This document shows, piece by piece, positions 22,244-24,286 of a stretch of 64,000 nucleotides of DNA. Within the stretch, counting starts at the first letter, position 1. Each line of letters starts with the position of its first letter. The position numbers were made by a program, and so were the translations under genes. The stretch spans positions 248,001-312,000 of the forward strand of contig NZ_JMLS01000008.1 in assembly GCF_000686845.1 (NCBI RefSeq), in the 5' to 3' direction. Below the pieces are notes generated by a model. The model made no database searches, was not told the origin of the DNA, and was given only the letters and a program-made list of their open reading frames with translations. The stretch is from Paenibacillus sp. UNC451MF. GTDB taxonomy: Bacteria; Bacillota; Bacilli; Paenibacillales; NBRC-103111.

Positions 22244-22486
22244 CTAGAAGTTCGTGAGACAAAATTGTGAGAGCAGGCTCCAGGTAAGCTCGCGTCGGCT
22301 GCTTACTCCCGTCTTCTCGAAGATGGACTTTAAATGATCTTGTACTGTATAAGAGGATATATATAAAGTATGGGCCAGCTCTTTGGTCGAATAGCCTTTC
22401 ACAACCAATTGAACGATTTCCTTCTTACGCACAGATAATCCATATGATTGTAGGAAGGCTGCTGGATTGCCATTCTCATGGATTGA
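22244..22486 (-). pseudogene. 5'-truncated LuxR-family regulator, only the HTH remains
   Basis: The frame encodes [18 protein letters not shown] continuing directly into [20 protein letters not shown] and [20 protein letters not shown], a clear LuxR C-terminal helix-turn-helix with part of its usual linker. The homologous sequence runs upstream of the first possible start (a GTG at 22432, with no ribosome site) into the 3' end of the cytochrome gene and is then closed by a TGA. The N-terminal sensor region is therefore missing, which indicates a deletion remnant. Expression of a solo HTH from the GTG is possible but unlikely. Confidence 0.65.
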
Positions 22487-23396
22487 GCAGCCGATAGATC
22501 ACAGTGATCGCTTCGGCTCGAGTTATTTTTTGATCGGGACGGAAAGTTCCGTCTTCATAGCCGTTGAATAGATGAGCCTCTTGAACGGCACTGATCGCAT
22601 CGCCGGCCCAATAGTCAGAGGGAACGTCTTTGAAGGGGGCAGTGACGTTTGCTTTCAGCATTTCGCTGCGGGACAGAATTGCAGATATCTCAGCACGGGT
22701 AATCGTATTCTTCGGACGAAACGTATGATCGGGATAACCGTTGATAAGTCCATACTCCACAGCTGTAATAATGTAAGTGCGATCTTCTTTATTCGTGCCG
22801 ATGTCGGTCATATCTGATTCAGTGCTGTTGGATAGGAACAATTCCTTGGCTTTGACAAAATAACGAATAAATTCCGCTCGGGTAATATATTGATCCGGTT
22901 TGAAGGAAAGCTTGTCCGTTTCCTTATCCAAGTATCCGTCAATATACTTCTTATCGTATAAAGCGGATATTTCCTTTTGAGCCCAATGTCCTTGTACATC
23001 GACAAAATCCGTAGGGATTCCGTTCAATGATAATACATATTTGGTGACGGCCTTATATTCTTCTTCCGATAAGGAGCCTGGAGCATTATCAGGCATATTG
23101 CGGCTAATAAAATCGTAAGCCTTGTCGTAGGTTCCGATTTTTTTCTTCACATGATCGCTCACCACAGCAGGGAATTTACCGGATCCTTTTCCGTCCGTTG
23201 CATGACAAGCAAGACAATGCTGCTGATAGACGGCTTCCCCACCCTCAGGTGCGGCAGTTACTTGCGCAGCAGGGGGAGCAGCTTCAGCTGTTTTGGTGAA
23301 CCGCAGTTGATGTTGAAACAAGACTCCGCTTGCTACTAATGCACAGCCAAGCAAAATAAGAAAACTCCGTCTAATAGGTCGTTTGCGATGCATCAT
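22476..23396 (-). CDS. Cytochrome c fused to three SLH domains
   Basis: From the ATG at 23396 (ribosome site AAGGAG, spacing six) the product is 306 residues. It has an N-terminal signal or anchor ([19 protein letters not shown]), a class I cytochrome c domain with haem site CLACH (residues 61-65) and distal Met101 in NMPDNAPG, and then three S-layer-homology repeats ([18 protein letters not shown] and [10 protein letters not shown], each ending in an ITRAE motif). It should carry one covalent haem and bind pyruvylated cell-wall polymer, putting an electron carrier outside the membrane. No oxidase or reductase gene is adjacent. The 3' end abuts the LuxR remnant. Confidence 0.85.
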
Positions 23397-23488
23397 AGGG
23401 CACTCCTTATAGTTGTCACTTTTCTCCATTATAAACGAAAAAGATGACAGAAGTGTGAAAAAGTTAACGGTTTTTAGCTATATTTGAT

Positions 23489-23526
23489 GAAAAAAAGCTG
23501 CCCCGTGACTTCCTACCGGGTACAGC
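23489..23526 (-). terminator. Terminator after the exported repeat protein gene
   Basis: On the minus strand AGCTGTACCCGG pairs with CCGGGGCAGCT (imperfect), followed by TTTTTTT. Confidence 0.7.
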
Positions 23527-23554
23527 TCTTGGCGTAAGTATATTTTGGTTGAAG

Positions 23555-24286
23555 CTACTTCGCTTCTTTGTTCTTACCATGGCTGGAGCCGCGCTTATGC
23601 TCGACCATTTTTTCAATCCACGGCGTCATTTCCTCTTTGATCTTGGACACCAGCTGGTCCTTGGCAATTCCTTGTGCGGCAGCAATTTCAGCTAACGATT
23701 TACCTTCCTTCAGCTGAGACTTCAGTTGATCCTCAGAAATTCCGATGATAGATGCTAGCTTGTCCGGTGCAGGGACCATCTTGTGGTGCATCCCGTGCTT
23801 GCCATGCCAAAACCCGCCCTTATGGTTGACCATAAATTTCAGGTGCTTCTCCATGTTGGCTTTCATCTTCTCGGCCTGCTCTGCGGTCAGCTTCCCTGCC
23901 TTAACGGCTTCGTCTATTTTCTTGCCCCGCATTGTTTTCAGCTTGTCGATCAAATCGGCTTCACTGATCCCTTTATCCTTAGCGATTTCCACCAAGGACT
24001 TTTCTTTTAATGAAGCGGAGAGGTTCTCCTTGTCCATGCTAAGAATCGCAGCGGCTTCCTCGAGAATAGGGATCGATTTCCGTTCGCCTTTTTCGGAATG
24101 CTTGCTTTCCTTGCTTTTTTCACCACGATCCTGCTTCTGTTCGGCTGGACCTTGCAGAAGGACTGGCTGCTCGGATGGCGCGGCTTGCGCCTGCTGTCTA
24201 GTGGTGGAGAGAGCGACTCCGCTCAGCAGTAAAGTAAAAGCTAAGCTTGTGACAATAACTCTGTTCGTATGAACGCTTCTCATCAT
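23555..24286 (-). CDS. Exported lysine-rich protein with a duplicated helical domain
   Basis: A signal peptide (residues 1-35, cleavage near AQA-AP) is followed by a charged linker and two copies of a helical unit of about 36 residues. Copy 1 is AAAILSMDKENLSASLKEKSLVEIAKDKGIS and copy 2 is LASIIGISEDQLKSQLKEGKSLAEIAAAQGIA, each then ending in a DxLxxK(L/I) helix. The spacer between them is rich in His, Gly and Lys (HGKHGMHHK), which could bind metal. Unit organisation recalls the small DUF2680-like secreted proteins of Bacillales. No function is known. It has its own terminator. Confidence 0.7.
   Translation of the reverse strand: MMRSVHTNRVIVTSLAFTLLLSGVALSTTRQQAQAAPSEQPVLLQGPAEQKQDRGEKSKESKHSEKGERKSIPILEEAAAILSMDKENLSASLKEKSLVEIAKDKGISEADLIDKLKTMRGKKIDEAVKAGKLTAEQAEKMKANMEKHLKFMVNHKGGFWHGKHGMHHKMVPAPDKLASIIGISEDQLKSQLKEGKSLAEIAAAQGIAKDQLVSKIKEEMTPWIEKMVEHKRGSSHGKNKEAK

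Follow-up and report, generated by a model that had tools for sequence, protein, structure and literature searches.

A class I cytochrome c fused to three SLH repeats in Paenibacillus sp. UNC451MF: a candidate wall-tethered electron relay

Why should a small cytochrome c be joined to a cell wall anchor in a Paenibacillus? The question is raised by a gene, here called slh-cytochrome, in a stretch of 64,000 nucleotides from Paenibacillus sp. UNC451MF (the window). The initial annotation had placed at 22476-23396 a protein with one haem domain fused to three SLH repeats. The fusion was confirmed and its coding strand is the minus strand: the open frame, on the complement of 22476-23396, runs from an ATG at 23396 to a stop at 22476, while the translated plus strand of the same region is full of stops. 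AAGGAG stands immediately 5' of the start (by eye), and a second in-frame ATG is found at 23429. The gene and its parts are as follows.

22476..23396, minus strand: slh-cytochrome gene, 306 aa, with an export signal, a class I cytochrome c domain and three SLH repeats
23280..23396, minus strand: probable export signal, approximately residues 1-39, with basic n-region, hydrophobic stretch and AEA site (by eye)
23034..23252, minus strand: class I cytochrome c domain, residues 49-121 (Pfam PF13442, 43.5 bits, cut-off 27; also PF00034, 31.5 bits, cut-off 21.3)
23202..23216, minus strand: haem attachment motif CLACH, residues 61-65 (from the sequence)
23094..23096, minus strand: probable axial ligand Met101, within RNMP (an invariant alignment column)
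22485..23012, minus strand: three SLH repeats, residues 129-304, with ITRAE in each (PF00395, 131.5 bits over three stretches)

CLACH, Met101 and three SLH units in a single chain had been claimed from the beginning, and Pfam and the sequence agree with that description. The Pfam scan of the protein gave only cytochrome and SLH matches, with neither a sensor domain nor a SoxA-like catalytic domain. The haem domain ends just a few residues before the first SLH repeat, which leaves no room for a long flexible tether. There is one CXXCH motif, and the sole further cysteine is Cys18. A lipoprotein was considered and rejected: Cys18 occurs in one of 12 aligned sequences, three others having a cysteine some residues further along the same stretch. 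Scores against the NCBIfam c550 and c551 families were 21.3 and 20.3 bits, with cut-offs of 125 and 118.

The full-length structure model had a pLDDT of 77.9 and showed a helix at residues 11-33, within the probable export signal. Its SLH part matched SLH trimers in Foldseek (3pyw, TMt 0.83), among them SpaA with pyruvylated ligand. The haem domain modelled alone formed five helices with a pLDDT of only 64.8, and its best PDB match had an E-value of 0.14; the matches to TsdA, cytochrome c6 and c-556 were none of them significant by E-value. A sequence profile of the haem domain, searched against solved structures, found CcoP, TsdA, cytochromes of bc complexes and others including Cbp2D.

It might be suspected that such a protein arose from two genes joined by an assembly or frame error, a condition that the initial annotation had itself named as fatal to its reading. 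Nothing was found in favour of this explanation, and an uninterrupted fusion is present in 22 independent genomes, mostly in a common neighbourhood, which excludes it for practical purposes. In the GTDB genus, 12 of 13 genomes (the present one included) matched at 1e-40; 11 had the fusion, one (G002, P. doosanensis) had the SLH half only, and G012 gave no match at this threshold. A scan of genome contigs yielded 48 loci, of which four (L022-L025) are slh-cytochrome; for the other 44 the listed match ranges do not take in residues 61-65, and these loci were set aside as SLH matches. A profile search of the GTDB family at 1e-45 matched 23 of 104 genomes, namely 22 fusions from six of the 22 genera plus G002, leaving 81 without a match. 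With this limit and a ceiling of 22 scored candidates in each genome, divergent fusions or fusions with SLH before haem may escape. The orthologue of G010 (L018, L129) has an uncertain start codon. CXXCH, Met-Pro and the three R-x-E motifs of the SLH repeats are kept in all 22 fusions (our own included), and at the level of sequence the fusion is conserved beyond chance.

Two wider samples, 392 genomes from the order and 398 from the phylum, with at most ten candidates scored per genome, yielded no fusion beyond the family. When the haem domain was profiled together with the first SLH repeat, 24 of the 392 genomes matched: the same 22 fusions, G002 by its SLH part only and G113 by its haem part only. 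In the phylum sample the sole matches were to slh-cytochrome of the window itself. An unfused parent or close homologue of the haem domain was sought among the 104 family genomes and none was found. The haem-only profile, built from 21 of the 22 fusions, matched 23 genomes at 1e-10, that is the 22 fusions (the one left out, L141 in genome G008, was matched regardless) and a protein whose N-terminal half is SoxA-like (57 bits, below cut-off). Within the family, therefore, such haem domains were met only in fused form.

Evolutionary rates were compared in four pairs, of which only the pair with G009 had usable dS in all three parts of the protein. Here dN was 0.083 in the haem domain (dS 0.97), 0.033 in the SLH part (dS 1.49) and 0.41 in signal plus linker (dS 0.78). 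For the remaining three pairs dS had reached saturation everywhere but in the haem domain of G003 (2.66). Amino-acid identity was higher in the SLH part than in the haem domain in all four pairs, by 1 to 9 points.

The orthologue of P. doosanensis (G002) has the neighbours, promoter, signal and three SLH repeats of the fusions and lacks the haem domain; identity in the alignment is 61%. In a tree of the SLH part it branches among haem-bearing relatives (weak local support, 84/79; wider clade 95/85; midpoint root), a position which favours a putative loss of the haem domain over a primitive state. Five other PF13442 proteins are encoded in its genome. Since G002 lacks the haem domain despite these proteins, and 81 of the 104 family genomes have no match at 1e-45, the function is dispensable.

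The surroundings of the gene were compared in 22 loci, those of the 21 fusions other than the window's own and that of G002. Three features of the region upstream of slh-cytochrome are needed in what follows.

23555..24286, minus strand: syntenic neighbour, 243 aa, probably secreted, with a DUF2680 match (27.9 bits, cut-off 25) and a His-rich stretch
23489..23528, minus strand: terminator-like hairpin (GAGCTG...CAGCTT, then a T-run) after the upstream gene (by eye)
23428..23459, minus strand: promoter-like element, an 11-bp direct repeat TTCACA-N5-GTCATC followed by TATAAT

The DUF2680 gene lies on the same strand within 4 kb upstream in 21 of the 22 loci (absent from L134, a partial match in L136), and its product is a possible partner of slh-cytochrome. 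A DUF1054 gene is also found upstream on the same strand. Downstream, on the opposite strand, is a gene for an MFS transporter, which is downstream in 16 of the 22 loci. Between this gene and the stop of slh-cytochrome there is a 62-aa frame (22244-22432, minus strand) with a LuxR-type HTH (GerE, 43.4 bits), seemingly a leftover C-terminal piece of a regulator; in the relative L022 the gap measures merely about 54 bp. At L134 (G030, genus g11) the neighbourhood is different, with the fusion flanked by two genes that look transporter-like (judged by appearance), so either the gene has moved or its surroundings have been rearranged. Among six neighbouring proteins scanned there was neither a redox nor a sensor protein, nor a carbohydrate enzyme, and the search for redox neighbours shared across loci was equally negative among those scanned.

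Because of the terminator-like hairpin behind the upstream gene (missed by a generic scan with a loop limit of 8), slh-cytochrome probably depends on a promoter of its own for transcription. Of 23 orthologous loci, 14, drawn from three genera and including G002, have the direct repeat (TTCACA-N5-GTCA) in strict form, at fixed spacing from a TATAAT-like box. In a relaxed form, for which no shuffle control was made, it extended to 18 of the 23 (three more loci of genus g8 and one of g6); four g19 loci and G030 lacked it even then. In g8 the first repeat reads GTCATA in place of TTCACA. The strict form did not occur in any of 11,500 base-shuffled upstream regions, and its 13 occurrences in 0.78 Mb of loci (both strands) were all upstream of slh-cytochrome orthologues. 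In our whole genome a similar pattern including the -10 box occurs once. A generic sigma-70 scan (three sites found, 2.3 expected) did not list this site and gave another at 23419-23392, and inspection by eye shows no good -35 hexamer at a distance of 16-18 bp. Given the poor -35 and the missing sigma-70 call, it is a reasonable guess that an activator binding the direct repeats would drive the predicted promoter. The repeats may resemble boxes of the OmpR/PhoP type. A palindrome for FNR/CRP was dropped, as its upstream half is not conserved. No regulon was found in the genome: up to two mismatches gave 15 sites, with 13 for a reversed-pattern control, and among the other 14, as listed, TATAAT never stands at the spacing seen before slh-cytochrome.

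What could the cell offer to a cytochrome in its wall? The genome encodes a bc-type quinol:cytochrome c reductase and a caa3 oxidase. Besides slh-cytochrome, PF13442 is matched above cut-off by three c551-like lipoproteins, a QcrC-like protein and CtaC with its haem domain; none of these is joined to SLH repeats. The c551-like proteins (78-99 bits) are basic and have a lipobox (by eye); their matches and that of the QcrC-like protein are below the NCBIfam cut-offs. Computed pI values are 6.3 for the haem domain of slh-cytochrome and about 9 for the three c551 domains, a hint of a different partner face. Clusters of three PF13442 matches were seen in two relatives from the genus (G005:C11, 99947-103762; G008:C79, 130287-134091), one of the matches lying in a frame of about 453 aa. 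A search of our genome with full slh-cytochrome gave 83 matches, nearly all to SLH and in frames of up to 3172 aa; among them the window gene alone covers both halves. The proposal to look for csaB was rewarded (TIGR03609, 292.7 bits, cut-off 213.1).

We tentatively propose, with a probability of roughly 0.42, that slh-cytochrome serves as a one-electron relay, tethered to the wall, which links the cytochrome c pool of the membrane with a diffusible partner. The gene would give rise to a class I cytochrome c that carries one haem and is exported, and the three SLH repeats would hold it in the wall by way of a pyruvylated secondary wall polymer, which CsaB would help to make. On its inner side the protein would exchange electrons with the membrane-bound pool (the bc-type complex, the c551-like lipoproteins and the caa3 oxidase); its outer partner would be a small diffusible molecule or a secreted redox protein. 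The fusion and its conservation, the haem motif, the anchor, the respiratory genes and the promoter-like element are seen in the sequence itself; haem loading, wall location, partner and direction of flow are what we infer, location and chemistry because the domain families are well known. A wall thickness of 20-30 nm has been reported for a Lysinibacillus, and at such a thickness one haem cannot bridge the wall alone. An uncleaved signal would keep the protein in the membrane too. The architecture, the 22 family genomes with the fusion and its motifs kept in all of them, the lack of an unfused close homologue found in the family, the low dN of the haem domain, csaB, the respiratory set, the SLH fold matches, the promoter-like element and the pI of the haem domain speak for the relay; the dispensability of the function, the absence of a redox gene among the scanned neighbours and the poorly modelled haem domain count against it, as do the single haem and the possibly uncleaved signal.

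The outer partner might be sought more narrowly among secreted oxidoreductases. The cytochrome could supply electrons to, or receive them from, an enzyme such as a lytic polysaccharide monooxygenase (LPMO), in the manner of X183 of Cellvibrio Cbp2D. The haem-domain profile does match the Cbp2D chain 7b21 (E 6e-5), the model of the whole protein matches the X183 domain 8q1w weakly (E 2.9), and CjX183 is reported to reduce and activate LPMOs in vitro (PMC8981238); the large SLH-bearing frames among the 83 matches also fit. However, class I cytochromes look alike, CcoP and TsdA match better, and the scanned neighbours include no carbohydrate enzyme, so we consider this reading unlikely. A quite different possibility is that the SLH repeats are the working part, with a role in wall architecture, and that the haem is an accessory acting as redox buffer, scavenger of peroxide or NO, or sensor. 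The orthologue of G002, in which promoter, signal and SLH survive without the haem domain, would be expected on such a view, as would the higher identity of the SLH part. Against it, haem motif and ligand are retained in every one of the 22 fusions across six genera, there is a Met ligand, and Pfam finds no sensor domain; the odds seem to us rather poor. A Met ligand speaks for electron transfer rather than peroxidase chemistry. Cytochrome-mediated signalling, which the initial annotation had suggested, gained nothing from the neighbours scanned, none of which is a sensor gene.

The same annotation had favoured electron transfer across the wall, in other words an extracellular route to minerals, electrodes or humics. 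Such a route requires haem in the wall, and from The Cedars comes a Paenibacillus that reduces iron minerals (PMC10373932). In the same paper, however, that strain is credited with a flavin-type operon, whereas FMN_bind (PF04205) had no match in our genome (four of 14 control genomes were positive). One haem per 30 kDa chain also compares poorly with the multihaem surface proteins of Carboxydothermus (PMC7829351), and the scanned neighbours hold no redox gene. The reading is possible, its sole support being location, and we regard it as distinctly improbable.

More broadly, the wall of these Paenibacillaceae may itself be a redox compartment, in which a dedicated and separately regulated SLH cytochrome would extend the aerobic cytochrome c pool into the wall and connect it to secreted enzymes or mediators; this idea is doubtful at present. 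In the literature consulted, electron transfer in Gram-positive walls is the province of anaerobic metal reducers with multihaem proteins, of flavin systems and of conductive appendages, and the characterised surface cytochromes are multihaem proteins of anaerobes. Here a single-haem version occurs in bacteria with an aerobic cytochrome chain. As it is small and conserved and has an anchor-only relative, the role of a wall-bound cytochrome becomes testable with one gene. A search of full-text literature (excluding most subscription journals and bioRxiv) gave no description of a single-haem cytochrome-SLH fusion. The literature consulted also includes PMC6085454, PMC7969598, PMC4137172 and PMC12542752.

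Comparison with known systems shows resemblances to several of them. Like the c550/c551 lipoproteins of Bacillales (NF045773/NF045774), slh-cytochrome is a single-haem class I cytochrome predicted to lie outside the membrane; unlike the c551-like lipoproteins of its own genome it has C-terminal SLH repeats and no conserved lipobox, and it scores only 20-21 bits with these families. With S-layer proteins anchored by SLH, such as Sap and SpaA, it shares three repeats with R-x-E, their fold and csaB in the genome, whereas its cargo is a cytochrome. OcwA and OmhA of metal reducers are likewise cytochromes on a Gram-positive cell surface (PMC7829351), but OmhA is listed there with 11, which we read as haem motifs, against one in slh-cytochrome. 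For the view that metal-reducing Firmicutes are known to have SLH-cytochrome fusions, no confirmation came from the texts consulted, which describe multihaem proteins of surface or wall and, in Carboxydocella, a separate SLH gene near cytochrome genes. Multihaem cytochromes with an S-layer domain make a haem protein part of the surface layer in ANME, but those proteins are archaeal, giant and multihaem, and their S-layer domain is the former DUF1608, not SLH (PMC9012536). Of the proteins with solved structures, TsdA with its second haem domain is one of those closest to the haem domain of slh-cytochrome, which has no counterpart of the SoxA-like catalytic domain. X183 of Cbp2D likewise represents a small cytochrome c domain within a protein that is extracellular and binds polysaccharide; Cbp2D, however, carries a CBM2 and comes from a Gram-negative organism, whereas the anchor of slh-cytochrome would serve the producer's own wall.
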